A stretch of DNA of 64,000 bases, taken from Bradyrhizobium sp. SRS-191. Its GTDB lineage: Bacteria > Pseudomonadota > Alphaproteobacteria > Rhizobiales > Xanthobacteraceae. Positions 20,543 through 42,239 of the stretch are shown here, piece after piece. Location: NCBI RefSeq assembly GCF_024586915.1, contig NZ_JANBVS010000001.1, positions 372,001 to 436,000 on the forward strand, given 5' to 3'. Every line of letters starts with the position of its first letter. Position 1 is the first letter of the stretch. The position numbers were made by a program, and so were the translations under genes. Under the pieces are notes generated by a model. That model was not told where the DNA came from, did no database searches, and saw only the letters and a list, made by a program, of their open reading frames with translations.

Positions 20543-20619
20543 GGTCCCATAGCTCAACTGGATAGAGTAGCGGATTTCTACTCCGCGGGTTGCAGGTTCG
20601 AGTCCTGCTGGGATCGCCA
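20543..20619 (+). tRNA. tRNA-Arg (anticodon UCU)
   Basis: The 77-nt gene has a full cloverleaf. The acceptor stem GGTCCCA pairs with TGGGATC, the discriminator is G, and CCA is encoded at 20617-20619. The anticodon stem GCGGA/TCCGC encloses the loop TTTCTAC, giving anticodon TCT, which reads AGA/AGG. The T arm has GGTTCGAGTCC. Accessory DNA starts directly downstream, which fits a tRNA used as an integration site. Confidence 0.96.
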
Positions 20620-29447: not shown

Positions 29448-29474
29448 TGTCAGCCTCCGTTGGTTGAGACGAGG

Positions 29475-29500
29475 AACGTGCGGGCGGTCACCGGCGTTCC
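29475..29500 (-). promoter_or_regulatory. EcfG-type stress promoter of the PRC-barrel gene
   Basis: Read on the minus strand: GGAAC, seventeen bases, then CGTT. This is the consensus of EcfG sigma-factor promoters in alphaproteobacteria, with the -10 box 28 bases before the ATG. Confidence 0.72.
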
Positions 29501-29517
29501 GCGCTCTTGTTGTCGCG

Positions 29518-31519: not shown

Positions 31520-31829
31520 ATGAAATAGCTGGGAGCCGATCAGCATCGCCACAACCCGGGTTACACGATCTTAATCTTCGTGGAACGGCCCCCCTCGAAA
31601 TCCAACGACGACCCTTCGGGGCCTCCTCCTAGTTCCATGCAAAAATTTCCAGCGATCAATAGGAACGAGTTCCGTGGAAACGAGTTGAGCCGCTTGTGCC
31701 GGGTTCGAGGGGTTCCATTGGACCTTGGAAACCGGCATGCGGCTTGATTTGAGAGGTGGTCGCGGCTTGTATGCCGCAGATCTTTAGACTCGGAATCGAG
31801 TTGGCCATTGTGCTGCCCGGGGGAACTAC
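31520..31829. other. Intergenic region before the poly-HAMP kinase
   Basis: There are 310 bases between divergent genes with no further gene. The sequence GGAAC ... AGTT (31671 onward, spacing sixteen) is a weak EcfG-like candidate pointing at the kinase. The repeated GAGTTCC and GGAAA words in the same place make other regulator sites possible. Confidence 0.4.
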
Positions 31830-38126
<6,297 letters not shown>

Positions 38127-38139
38127 ACGGCTCAACATC

Positions 38140-39636
38140 ATGGAACATGAGAAGGTCAACATCCTCCTGGTTGACGACCAGCCCGCAAAGCTGCTGGCCT
38201 ATGAAGTCATCCTGAAGGACCTCAACGAGCACCTCGTGGTCGCGACCTCCGGCCGCGAGGCGCTCGAGATCCTGTTGAAGAACGAGATCTCGGTCATCCT
38301 GGTCGACGTCTGCATGCCCGAGCTGGATGGTTTCGAACTCGCGCAGATGATCCGCGAGCATCCGCGGTTCCAGAAGATCGCGATCATCTTCATCTCCGCC
38401 GTCCAGGTCAGCGATTTCGATCGGCTGCGCGGCTATGAGATGGGCGCCGTCGACTACGTGCCGGTTCCTGTGGTGCCTGAGGTGCTGCGCGCGAAGATCA
38501 AGGTGTTCACCGAGCTGTATCGCAAGACGCGCGAGCTCGAGCATTTGAACCTCGAGTTGGAGAATCGTGTTCGCGCCCGCACCGCGGAGCTGGAGAAGTC
38601 CACCGCTCGCCTGCGCGAGAGCGAGGAACGCCGCAGCATGGCCATCGCCGCCGGACGGATGGGCTCGTGGGATTGGGACGGCATCAACGGCGATTGGATG
38701 TGGGACGAAGGTCAGTACCGCATCTTCGGCGTGACCCCGCAGGGCTTCGAACTCAACAGCGTCAACATCATGGGCCTGCTGCATCCCGATGATGCCGAGC
38801 GTGCGCGGCACGTGCTGGACGAGTTCGGCCGCGGCGTGACGTCCTATGAGGCCGAATTCCGCATCAACCGGCCCGATGGCGAGGAGCGCTGGTGCGTCGG
38901 AACCGCGGCGGCAACCACGGACAGATCCGGCCGCGTGGTCCGCGTCAGCGGCGTCACGATCGACATCACCGAGCGCAAACGCGCGGAGGAGCGCCAGAAC
39001 CTGCTGACACGGGAGGTCGATCATCGCGCCAAGAATGCGCTGACGCTGGCGCAGTCGATCGTCCGCCTCACCAAGGCGGAGAACGTGCGGACCTATGTCA
39101 GCGCCGTGGAGGGCCGCATCAGCGCGCTGGCGCGTGTTCACACCATCCTCTCGCTGTCGAGCTGGCAAGGCGCAGAGATCAGCCGGCTCGTCGAAGAAGA
39201 GCTCGCGCCCTATGCCACGGGAGGTCAGGTCGGCTTCGGCGGGCCCGAGCTGCAGCTCGAACCAGCGACGGCGCAAACGCTTGCGCTGGCGCTGCACGAG
39301 CTGGTGACTAACTCCGCCAAATACGGCGCGCTTTCGGTCCGCTCCGGTCATCTGTCGGTGCAATGGACGATCGAGCCAGATCAGCGGCTCGATCTCACCT
39401 GGATCGAAACCGGTGGACCGCTGGTCCATGTGCCGACGTCGCGCGGCTTCGGCACGCGCAGCCTGATGGCGAGCGTCGAGAGCCAGCTCGGCGGCCGCGC
39501 GTTGTTTGACTGGCGTCCCGAGGGCCTGGTCTGCCGCCTCCTCGTGCCGCTCCGTCCGGGTGCTACTCCGCCGGAGACGACAAGGCCCTTCACGGTCGCC
39601 GCGCCAAAAGAAGCGCGTCAGCGCGCGGCGGGATGA
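38140..39636 (+). CDS. Receiver-PAS-HWE histidine kinase
   Basis: This is a 498-residue soluble kinase. The N-terminal receiver domain has D56 in ILVDVCMPELDG, then a coiled coil, then a PAS/PAC domain (MGSWDWDGINGDW onward). The C-terminal kinase is of the HWE family: H295 in DHRAKN, the N-box ELVTNSAKYG, and WIETGGP carrying the W-x-E signature. The ATG at 38140 lies 13 bp after the poly-HAMP kinase, so the two are one unit. The receiver could accept phosphate from that kinase. HWE kinases often act on PhyR of the general stress response. Confidence 0.9.
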   Translation: MEHEKVNILLVDDQPAKLLAYEVILKDLNEHLVVATSGREALEILLKNEISVILVDVCMPELDGFELAQMIREHPRFQKIAIIFISAVQVSDFDRLRGYEMGAVDYVPVPVVPEVLRAKIKVFTELYRKTRELEHLNLELENRVRARTAELEKSTARLRESEERRSMAIAAGRMGSWDWDGINGDWMWDEGQYRIFGVTPQGFELNSVNIMGLLHPDDAERARHVLDEFGRGVTSYEAEFRINRPDGEERWCVGTAAATTDRSGRVVRVSGVTIDITERKRAEERQNLLTREVDHRAKNALTLAQSIVRLTKAENVRTYVSAVEGRISALARVHTILSLSSWQGAEISRLVEEELAPYATGGQVGFGGPELQLEPATAQTLALALHELVTNSAKYGALSVRSGHLSVQWTIEPDQRLDLTWIETGGPLVHVPTSRGFGTRSLMASVESQLGGRALFDWRPEGLVCRLLVPLRPGATPPETTRPFTVAAPKEARQRAAG

Positions 39637-39644
39637 CAGCTTAC

Positions 39645-41930
39645 CTAGCCTGCTGCCTCCCGGGTGATGCGCACCGGCACGGACTTGGCAGCCGGCACCT
39701 TGCTGCCTTCGGCGTAGTGCCACAGCGGGATCAATCCGTTGCACTCGGGGTAGTAGGCCGCGACGCTGAACCTTGGGATGTCGAACGTGACAGCCTGTAG
39801 TCCACCGAGCGAGCGTTCGACGCCGTCATCGGCGACGGTCGCGAGTTTGATCATATCGCCCTGCCCGATGCCCAGCTCCGCCATGTCGCTTGCATTCATG
39901 AACACGACCCGACGCCCGCCGGACACGCCGCGGAAGCGGTCGTCCTCGTTGTAGATCGTGGTGTTGAACTGGCCGTCGGCACGCAACGTCATCAGCTGAA
40001 AGATGCCATTGCCCTCTTCCGGGGGATTAAGCGCCGCTTTCGGCACGGTGAAATTGGCCTTGCCCGTCGCCGTCTTCCATTTGCGCTCGCGAGCTCCCAA
40101 TGGCCGCGGAAAGCCGCCAGGCTCGAACAGCCGCGTGTTGAAGTCCTTGAACTGATCGGGGTAGGTGCGCTCGATCGCCTCCCGGACGAGCGCATACTTG
40201 CCAACCCATGCATCCCAGTCCACGCGCGGATTCGGCGCCAGCGTCGCCTGGGCGAGGCCGGCGACGATCGCGGGCTCCGACAGCAGGCCATCGGCGACCG
40301 GCTGACGCTGGCCCTTCGAGCCGTGGATACAGGTGGTGGAGTCCTCCATCGCCACCGCCTGCTCGCCGCTCGCCTGCCTGTCGATCTCGATCCGCCCGAG
40401 GCACGGCAACAGGTAGGTGATCTCGCCGGGCACAAGATGGCTGCGATTGAGCTTGGTCGCGATCTGGACGGATAGCCGCAGCTTCGCCCAGGCCGGCTCC
40501 ATCAGCGATCGCTCCGGCACGGCGCGCAGAAAATTGCCGCCGAGACTGACGAAGCCCTTGACGTCGCCCTTGATGATGGCCTCGCAGGCGTCGACCGTGT
40601 TGAGGCCATCCCAGCGCGGCGGCTCGAACGCATAGAGCTCCGCCAGCTTGTCGAGCGGCACCAGCTTGGTCTTCTCGGAGATGCCGACGGTGCGCTGCCC
40701 CTGCACGTTGGAATGGCCGCGGACCGGAGAGATTCCCGCGCCAGGCTTGCCGATGTTCCCGCGCAGCAGCAGCAGGTTGACGATCATCTTGGCCGTTTCG
40801 ACACCATGGCGATGCTGCGTGATGCCCATGCCGTAATTGGCGATCACGGCGTGCGCGGATGCATAGACCTTCGCAGCCTCCAGGAGGTCAGCGCGACGAA
40901 GACCGGACGCCCGCTCGATATCGCTCCACGACGCCTGACGGCAGTAGTTCGCGAACTCCTCGAAACCGGAGGTGTGCTGCTCGATGAAGGCCACATCGAG
41001 AACGCGCGGACGCTTCATGGAGACCGCGGCGTCATCAGCCTCGATCACCGCCTTGCACATCCCGAGCAGCGCCGCGCCATCGCCGCCGACCCTGAGCTGA
41101 TGATATTGCGTGCTGATGCGGGTGCCGCCGGTGAGCACCATCTGGATCGGATTCTGCGGATTGGTGAAGCGCTCCAGCCCACGCTCGCGCAGGGGGTTGA
41201 AGGTGATGATGGGAACGCCGCGTTGCGCCGCCTTCTGCAGCGGATGCAGCATGCGCGGCGAGTTGGTCGTGGTGTTCTGGCCGAAGAACAGGATGCAGTC
41301 GGACTTGTCGAAATCCTCGAGCAGCACAGTGCCGACGGGCACACCGATCACCTCGGGCAGCGCGACCGAGGTGGATTCGTGACACATGTTCGAACTGTCA
41401 GGAAAATTGTTGGTGCCGTACATGCGCCCGAACAGCTGATACATGTAGCTGGTCTCGAGCGAGGCCCGGCCCGACGTGTACATCACGACCGCGCGCGGAT
41501 CGAGCCGGTTCAGCTCGGCTCCCACGGCGCGAAACGCCTCGTCCCAACTCACGGGAACGTAGCGGTCGCTCGCCGCATCATAGCGCATCGGATGCGTCAG
41601 CCGGCCCTGCTCCTCCAACTGATGGTCCGACCAGGTCCGCAGCTCGGACAGAGTATGCTGAACGAAGAATTCCGGCCCGACCGTCTTGCCGGTGATTTCC
41701 CATGCCGTGGCCTTGGCGCCGTTCTCGCAGAATTCGAACGGGTGTGGATGGGCCGGCTTGGCCCAGGAACAGCTGACGCACATGAATCCGTCAGGCTTGT
41801 TCTGCTTCAGGAGGATCTCGCTGCCGAGCAGCGTGACCTCCTCCTGCGTAAGGATGCTGGCCACCGCTTGCACCGAACCCCAACCGCCGGCCGGAGCCGT
41901 ATAGTCCTGTATCTTCACCTTCTCACTCAC
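39645..41930 (-). CDS. YdeP/FdhF-family molybdopterin oxidoreductase
   Basis: This is a 761-residue cytosolic oxidoreductase of the YdeP type. The N-terminus carries FMCVSCSWAKPAHPHPFEFCENGAKA, typical of this family and different from the classical four-cysteine iron-sulfur motif. Long molybdopterin-binding and C-terminal MopB segments follow (RGHSNVQGQRTVG, SLGGNFLRAVP, TLRADGQFNTTIY). The GTG at 41930 has CGGAG seven bases upstream and is preferred over the TTG at 41954. The E. coli homologue is tied to acid resistance; the substrate is not known. It is a single gene, convergent with the HWE kinase. Confidence 0.88.
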   Translation of the reverse strand: MSEKVKIQDYTAPAGGWGSVQAVASILTQEEVTLLGSEILLKQNKPDGFMCVSCSWAKPAHPHPFEFCENGAKATAWEITGKTVGPEFFVQHTLSELRTWSDHQLEEQGRLTHPMRYDAASDRYVPVSWDEAFRAVGAELNRLDPRAVVMYTSGRASLETSYMYQLFGRMYGTNNFPDSSNMCHESTSVALPEVIGVPVGTVLLEDFDKSDCILFFGQNTTTNSPRMLHPLQKAAQRGVPIITFNPLRERGLERFTNPQNPIQMVLTGGTRISTQYHQLRVGGDGAALLGMCKAVIEADDAAVSMKRPRVLDVAFIEQHTSGFEEFANYCRQASWSDIERASGLRRADLLEAAKVYASAHAVIANYGMGITQHRHGVETAKMIVNLLLLRGNIGKPGAGISPVRGHSNVQGQRTVGISEKTKLVPLDKLAELYAFEPPRWDGLNTVDACEAIIKGDVKGFVSLGGNFLRAVPERSLMEPAWAKLRLSVQIATKLNRSHLVPGEITYLLPCLGRIEIDRQASGEQAVAMEDSTTCIHGSKGQRQPVADGLLSEPAIVAGLAQATLAPNPRVDWDAWVGKYALVREAIERTYPDQFKDFNTRLFEPGGFPRPLGARERKWKTATGKANFTVPKAALNPPEEGNGIFQLMTLRADGQFNTTIYNEDDRFRGVSGGRRVVFMNASDMAELGIGQGDMIKLATVADDGVERSLGGLQAVTFDIPRFSVAAYYPECNGLIPLWHYAEGSKVPAAKSVPVRITREAAG

Positions 41931-42239
41931 GGCACATCTCCGCGGCCTGAACAAGCGGCCAACCCGTGATCAAGAGGTAAGTTCCGTCCACTCACGGCAG
42001 GTTGCTTCAGGCCGGGACGACCAGGATGCAGCAGCCGAGGATCGGCGAAGTGACTTGGGAACGACGTGAATTAGGAACGACGCGCCGCGCCAGGCGTCTT
42101 CCAAGTGTCTCCGGCGGCGTTCCCCCATCTCGTCGGAGGCACTCCGTGTGGACTGCGGCCCAGCGTTCGACCCCTCGGGCGCTGGGCCTGTTCGCGCGGA
42201 GAGAGCCGGACCTCTCGACCCGGCCCTCCCCGACACGCC
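41931..42239. other. Intergenic region without a gene
   Basis: There are 309 bases between the YdeP-type gene and the stop of the PfpI gene, which must hold the YdeP promoter. I see no clear ORF, terminator or known promoter here. The sequence is GC-rich with short inverted words but no long hairpin. Confidence 0.5.

Follow-up and report, generated by a model that had tools for sequence, protein, structure and literature searches.

A conserved poly-HAMP hybrid kinase and receiver-bearing HWE kinase pair in Bradyrhizobium with a probable place in the general stress response

Results

A giant poly-HAMP kinase gene is followed by a Rec-PAS-HWE kinase gene

The two genes described here lie in a stretch of 64,000 nucleotides, referred to below as the window, from a 7.6 Mb genome in 96 contigs whose closest relatives are Bradyrhizobium. 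The first gene (31830..38126, forward strand), defined by its open reading frame and its Pfam matches, encodes a giant poly-HAMP hybrid histidine kinase of 2098 aa. Pfam places 11 HAMP and 11 HAMP_2 stretches in this protein together with a GAF domain (GAF_2, residues 1208-1344, 35451..35861), a HisKA and HATPase_c core (residues 1423-1490 and 1538-1661, 36096..36812) and three receivers; the third receiver, Rec3 (residues 1980-2092, 37767..38105), is the one that best matches the receiver of the downstream kinase, at 36% identity. Between the stop codon of the giant-kinase gene, which ends at 38126, and the following ATG at 38140 lie 13 bp, as given in an initial annotation of this DNA. We note that the HAMP array (31830-35400) also matches the SpoIIID (E 1.3e-11) and RpiR-type HTH Pfam models, probably by chance. 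An Rfam scan of the window at gathering thresholds gave a tRNA at 20543-20616 as its sole match.

The second gene (38140..39636, forward strand) encodes a protein of 498 aa, here called P0001, which its open reading frame, Pfam matches and predicted model describe as a Rec-PAS-HWE histidine kinase. The Response_reg, PAS_3 and HWE_HK matches each exceed their own Pfam cut-off, and correspond to an input receiver (residues 8-120, 38161..38499), a PAS domain (residues 186-272, 38695..38955) and an HWE_HK domain (residues 292-369, 39013..39246; H295 codon 39022-39024). By profile P0001 is an HWE histidine kinase (PF07536, 74.3 bits against a cut-off of 22.8); the host genome has 15 HWE matches in all, P0001 among them. 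The initial annotation had assigned a receiver with D56 and an HWE kinase with H295 to this gene, and both domains and both residues are indeed there. In the predicted model (mean pLDDT 81.8, pTM 0.40) the last receiver helix continues into the PAS domain as one long helix (residues 113-172, 38476..38655), which could plausibly be a lever linking the receiver and the kinase.

The HWE motif set consists of the HRxxN, N-box, WxE and GxG residues. In P0001 these are H295, R296, N299, N391, W421, E423, G436 and G438, all of which are present in 89/89 HWE-type sequences; because the Bradyrhizobium rows of that alignment had been motif-filtered we repeated the count without the filter, and the complete HWE match, with the same eight residues, is found in 80/80 Bradyrhizobium-type loci. 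The intact key residues favour kinase activity for P0001 and would be compatible with phosphatase activity as well. The best solved-structure match by sequence is PDB 6ph4 ('Blue-light-activated histidine kinase', residues 146-477 of P0001, E 1.2e-38), which we take to be Brucella LOV-HK. The input of LOV-HK is a LOV light sensor, whereas the input of P0001 is a receiver. What is said here of the organism and role of LOV-HK draws in part on the available text of PMC4438053.

The pair is core in Bradyrhizobium and sporadic elsewhere

We collected 80 Bradyrhizobium-type loci, 77 of which gave a readable HWE gene with a simple, motif-filtered ORF call (the other three, L054, L088 and L105, were missed by that call). 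In 72 of the 77 the giant-kinase gene ends no more than 100 bp upstream of the HWE gene, mostly 3-14 bp; with the same simple call, L047, L076 and L092 show no giant-kinase ORF, and in L060 and L115 it lies more than 1 kb away. When 146 Bradyrhizobium genomes were searched (E up to 1e-150 for the HWE kinase, up to 1e-250 for the giant-kinase core), the HWE kinase was found in 141 and the giant-kinase core in 139, with both in 139, neither in five and only the HWE match in two (G857, where it begins at base 310 of a contig, and G875). Presence and absence of the two are thus concordant in 144/146 genomes, and the pair is core in Bradyrhizobium; in G859 the two kinases are on different contigs. 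One record that holds a Bradyrhizobium-type pair is titled Frankia sp. RB7; its genome may be mislabelled or mixed.

Scattered examples of the pair occur in other Alphaproteobacteria. A search of the order (249 genomes, E up to 1e-75) gave seven matches outside Bradyrhizobium, six of them beside a poly-HAMP kinase, and a search of the class (289 genomes, E up to 1e-70) gave seven further matches, again with six beside a poly-HAMP kinase. In the two exceptions, G045 and one locus of G308, the hybrid kinase core nearby has no HAMP array; at 36-37% identity these are also the most distant of the matches. We also note two more distant Rec-PAS-HWE genes (L146 and L162) close to a hybrid kinase core. 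Spread of the pair on plasmids was considered and rejected, as plasmid matches to P0001 are below 60% identity in 17/17 records; on sphingomonad and Ketogulonicigenium plasmids, 14 of the 15 P0001 matches listed overlap features annotated as CheR. We likewise rejected an extra domain in the Bradyrhizobium orthologs, which had been raised by tblastn spans of 1.86 kb: these proteins measure about 495-505 aa, and the long spans can most likely be put down to inclusion of the last receiver of the giant kinase.

The receiver is kept while the output kinase is exchanged

We compared the gene that follows the giant kinase in 33 pairs, namely that of the window, those of seven Bradyrhizobium loci and those of 25 other genomes, a follow-up that covered part of the giant-kinase matches. 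Among 20 stretches checked, a partner receiver was found in 17 and not in G594 or G777, and one stretch (G492) was too short; G703 and G633, both with Lys at the switch position discussed below, have a partner receiver and lie outside the 33-pair set. Twenty-seven pairs are near pairs, with a receiver at least 57% identical to that of the window, and their output is HWE in 19 and HisKA in eight. The receivers of the 19 near pairs from outside the genus are 57-77% identical to that of P0001. Output type was confirmed by Pfam for 9/11 of the HWE partners outside the genus and 6/8 of the near HisKA partners; for four partners (G526, G090, G740 and G751) and for the six distant ones the assignment is based on motifs.

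The near HisKA partners are 57-75% identical to P0001 in the receiver and 37-76% identical in the exit helix (residues 123-158), and align at only 16-25% over its HWE kinase region. One of the eight, in G230, retains the PAS domain as well (45% identity), and a second, C-terminal receiver is present in five of the six that were scanned with Pfam. When a tree is built from the giant-kinase core, the seven alphaproteobacterial HisKA outputs cluster as a single supported group (99/96) among HWE types. This tree requires two changes of output, but its well-supported branches taken alone demand only one; the short receiver gave a poorly resolved tree, which requires four. Since the receiver and its exit helix stay constant while the output varies, the receiver looks like the dedicated partner of the giant kinase, and it seems from these comparisons that the receiver goes with the giant kinase and that the downstream output is exchangeable. 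Among the sequence arguments for functional coupling of the two genes we regard this as the strongest. At the same time, the presence of HisKA outputs in the same pair means that the unit does not by its nature include output from an HWE kinase to PhyR.

The kept receiver has an invariant Asp and lacks the switch lysine

Receivers canonically carry an acid pair, the phospho-accepting Asp, a Thr or Ser and a Lys, and the lysine couples phosphorylation to the conformational switch. The numbering of the P0001 receiver matches that of CheY (Thr87, Tyr106, Lys109). The receiver alignment places the predicted phospho-acceptor, D56, at 38305..38307 and the switch-lysine position at 38464..38466, both on the forward strand; D12, D13, D56 and S86 are present and the Lys is replaced by Val109, so that the canonical set is incomplete. 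This is not peculiar to the window. Across 97 near sequences (78 of Bradyrhizobium type, window included, 11 of other HWE types and eight of HisKA types), D12, D13 and D56 are present in 97/97, position 86 is Ser in 96 and Thr in one, and position 109 is Val in 97/97, as against Lys in 6/6 distant partners. Without the motif filter, D12, D13, D56, S86 and V109 are found in 80/80 Bradyrhizobium-type loci.

A receiver that gives up the lysine and yet preserves the Asp so strictly does not have the appearance of a decaying domain. It may be that D56 is still phosphorylated and this is read in some other way; otherwise the receiver would act mainly via docking. These results bear on the proposal in the initial annotation that phosphate could pass from the giant kinase into the HWE kinase. 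The coupling of the two kinases that this presupposes is well supported, to judge from the conserved adjacency, the near-complete agreement in presence and absence and the retention of the receiver across changes of output kinase. Simple entry of phosphate into D56 has become less plausible, as an invariant Val replaces the switch lysine, although the acidic pocket is itself invariant.

An EcfG-type promoter is conserved upstream of the pair

In Sphingomonas the EcfG motif is given as GGAAC-N17-20-GTT in the available text of PMC6599016. The strict pattern GGAAC-N16/17-CGTT occurs at 117 places in the host genome, as compared with 123 for the reversed control pattern, and being at chance level a lone match means nothing; we therefore rejected strict matches as stand-alone evidence. 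The window's own site upstream of the pair (GGAAC-N16-AGTT, 31662..31686, forward strand) is moreover a relaxed match. It stands out as a phylogenetic footprint. In 66 Bradyrhizobium-type upstream sequences (the window and 65 of the 80 loci), GGAAC is found at the aligned place in 65 and a four-base -10 element ending in TT at exactly N16 in 60, with xATT or similar in place of xGTT in about 22. Because these sequences are related and not independent, the evidence lies in the contrast between boxes and spacer: the last two -10 bases are conserved at 100% and 95%, and the spacer columns at 35-70% (n=66). GGAAC-N16/17-NGTT is found in 47/66 upstream regions (expected 0.97 from shuffles and 5.0 from the motif-rich background of the loci themselves) and the CGTT form in 24/66 (expected 0.43 and 2.0, respectively).

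Beyond Bradyrhizobium, a site near the giant-kinase start is found in nine of 21 other alphaproteobacterial loci, where shuffles predict 0.73 and the background predicts 1.06; that of L142 is doubtful since it falls within the opened reading frame. The site is missing from the other 12 loci, and from both of two non-alphaproteobacterial loci. By type, the site is present in 5/9 HWE, 1/6 near HisKA and 3/5 distant loci and in 0/1 for G230, and it also precedes the HisKA-type pair at locus L230. The footprint gives good support, at the sequence level, for control of the pair by EcfG in Bradyrhizobium, and predicts that the pair is likely a member of the general stress regulon. It speaks to membership of the regulon and not to action of the kinases on it; and as the stress promoter accompanies the poly-HAMP unit more widely, it is not in itself evidence for output of the HWE kinase to PhyR.

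We observed that EcfG-like patterns other than the site before the pair are numerous around these genes, with 347 against 77 reversed controls in loci L047-L126 and 29 against three in the 21 other alphaproteobacterial loci. The initial annotation had correctly placed EcfG-like promoters on both sides of the pair. The upstream one is the deep footprint just described; the downstream one (41961..41985, reverse strand), a similar form of which recurs in L047, lies directly before a neighbouring FdhF/YdeP-family oxidoreductase gene (39645-41954, reverse strand) to which it belongs and which is found in just that one of the 80 loci. A strict EcfG-type pattern on both strands at 29473-29500 directly precedes an ORF at 29507. 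Two other neighbours were rejected as EcfG-type genes: PfpI, whose site is in the window only (0/4 relatives), and an SDR gene, for which the site is absent in 4/4 sequences including that of the window.

Candidate outputs of the HWE kinase

The host genome contains a probable PhyR-NepR-EcfG set. A single NepR was detected by profile (contig C39, position 225625), and the translations of the genes beside it were read by eye as PhyR, with a sigma-like part and a receiver, and an ECF sigma factor. An HWE kinase beside NepR (L147:7242-8897) lacks the usual N-box, with FELASHSDEGLSL in place of the HELVTNSAKYGAL found in P0001, and from its sequence is perhaps a phosphotransferase rather than a kinase. 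There are parallels in PhyT of Sphingomonas, whose ATPase domain is degenerate, and in the phosphotransfer protein PhyK of Caulobacter, as described in the portions available of PMC5898713 and PMC5964349. With a degenerate N-box in the NepR-adjacent protein, a system of this kind would need phosphate from elsewhere.

One potential route is through receivers with the FATGUY motif, PFXFATG(G/Y) (PMC5964349, available text). The motif is absent from the only receiver of P0001, which reads KIAIIFISA at that place, and P0001 has no C-terminal receiver. Among sister HWE partners that do have one, PFxFxTGY is present in it in 7/8, as compared with 0/7 for HisKA partners. The host genome also encodes a single-domain receiver (L247, C1:513976-514287) with PFIFATGY, whose open frame is preceded at a distance of 127 bp by a strict EcfG-type site; by sequence it is a candidate for a hub of the SdrG/MrrA type. 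Taken with the FATGUY-like receivers of the sister kinases, this makes output to FATGUY receivers or PhyR the likeliest; delivery of phosphate by P0001 to PhyR is plausible given its HRXXN motif and those sister receivers. NepR itself does not discriminate between outputs. It was detected in 24 of 29 genomes searched (not in G476, G449, G653, G777 or G703) and with both output types, in 11 of 12 HWE-type genomes and in all seven alphaproteobacterial genomes with near HisKA partners; we rejected it as a discriminator since it occurs with both types and is undetectable in the HWE-type genome G476.

Discussion

We have found that a giant poly-HAMP hybrid kinase and a Rec-PAS-HWE kinase form a pair that is core in Bradyrhizobium and is preceded by an EcfG-type promoter. 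The closest precedent we are aware of is AskB-AskC of Myxococcus xanthus, which acts with AskA (PMC7643160, as far as the available text goes) and is the one worked-out bacterial poly-HAMP kinase system that our literature search returned. The systems share a poly-HAMP, Nik1-like hybrid kinase and a receiver-bearing kinase gene directly downstream, the very layout met here, and the pair resembles AskB-AskC in that layout. Rec3 of AskA is reported to contact the AskC receiver in a two-hybrid assay (PMC7643160), which makes docking reasonable for the present pair. AskA and AskB also show partial matches of the SpoIIID and RpiR types along the HAMP array, where models of the same names match here, and AskB bound DNA in vitro (PMC7643160). 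AskA, AskB and AskC serve development and ambruticin sensing, unlike the stress role proposed here; 'HWE' is absent from the main text of PMC7643160 and EcfG was not found in the portion available.

Related systems are also Pak/SdrG/PhyT of Sphingomonas melonis and MrrA-PhyK-PhyR of Caulobacter, with which the present genome shares HWE/HisKA_2 kinases with HRxxN, FATGUY receivers, PhyR and NepR (PMC5898713, PMC5964349, available portions). In vitro, MrrA is fed by the HisKA kinase CC2874 and in turn feeds PhyK (same sources). Unlike in those systems, the receiver here is fused N-terminally to the HWE kinase, lacks the switch lysine and has a poly-HAMP partner. The fungal group III kinases (Nik1, TcsC) are likewise poly-HAMP hybrid histidine kinases and differ from this pair in heading a HOG phosphorelay. 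We know of no second kinase gene in the fungal systems. Our literature search returned no paper on the pair, though doi 10.1094/MPMI-02-22-0051-FI (diazoefficiens) may already cover this HWE kinase.

We suggest that the kinase pair is probably one unit within the general stress response, and probably both a sensor for the general stress regulon and a member of it. The poly-HAMP hybrid kinase would sense stress and work via its HisKA core and receivers; it would control the N-terminal receiver of P0001, through phosphorylation of D56, through docking between Rec3 and that receiver, or through both; the resulting change would run along helix 113-172 via the PAS domain and set the activity of the HWE kinase at H295. 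The HWE kinase would then exchange phosphate with FATGUY-type receivers, PhyR or both, adjusting the release of EcfG, and EcfG would transcribe the kinase operon and so provide feedback. We put the probability of this scheme as a whole at roughly 50%. Sequence analysis establishes the domain anatomy, the conserved pairing, the constant receiver with its varying outputs, the missing switch lysine and the promoter footprint; which way phosphate flows, that it reaches PhyR or FATGUY receivers, and whether the feedback is positive or negative are matters we infer. The Val at the switch-lysine place counts against canonical phospho-switching within the scheme.

The same Val, invariant in the near sequences, suggests that the receiver may be a docking module, with Rec3, phosphorylated or not, holding the HWE kinase on or off while D56 stays unphosphorylated. 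That Rec3 of AskA binds the receiver of AskC in a two-hybrid assay (PMC7643160, available text) is consistent with this, but an acid pair and an Asp kept in every near sequence would be needless for pure docking. We consider this a real possibility, if a somewhat doubtful one, and it overlaps with the scheme above, which leaves the choice open. Much less can be said for the two genes being mere neighbours, with the receiver taking phosphate from its own H295 in the manner of an ordinary hybrid kinase: receiver and kinase do share one chain, but the receiver stays with the giant kinase when the output family changes, and the agreement in presence and absence across Bradyrhizobium genomes makes this reading very improbable.

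The promoter and the sister pairs bear on what the HWE kinase does with its phosphate. Being EcfG-induced, the pair could be a brake, its HWE kinase withdrawing phosphate from PhyR or from FATGUY receivers in the way proposed for LovK-LovR; lovKR of Caulobacter is SigT-controlled and proposed to give negative feedback (PMC5964349, available text), and the EcfG-type promoter upstream of the pair fits such a role. P0001 nevertheless retains the key HWE residues, which favours a kinase while still allowing a phosphatase, and we think a brake unlikely. It is also unlikely, in our estimation, that the HWE kinase has some other output, such as adhesion, motility or the envelope, with only its transcription tied to stress. 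There are precedents for this in SkaH and LovK, HWE kinases that affect holdfast control with SpdS-SpdR, and in Brucella ovis PhyK, which acts on the envelope (both from partial accounts), and it would accommodate the replacement of HWE by HisKA in sister pairs and the HWE-type pair of G476, a genome in which NepR was not detected; it sits less well with the FATGUY-like C-terminal receivers of the sister HWE partners and with the conserved EcfG-type promoter. A stress-response unit is the reading we prefer. A more general form of it, which we offer tentatively as a possibility and with some doubt, is that the lysine-less receiver may be a standard plug on which the poly-HAMP kinase docks to drive whichever kinase is fused to it, in Bradyrhizobium an HWE kinase leading to PhyR and EcfG, with EcfG transcribing the pair.

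It is only partly known which sensors act on the general stress response in nitrogen-fixing Bradyrhizobium, whose stress mutants show symbiotic defects (PMC8092242, available text). A receiver that has invariably lost its switch lysine, has invariably kept its Asp and has been joined to different output kinases amounts to a natural experiment on how a receiver can control a kinase. Through this pair the poly-HAMP kinases of bacteria can be connected with the general stress response of Bradyrhizobium in a specific way that lends itself to experiment.
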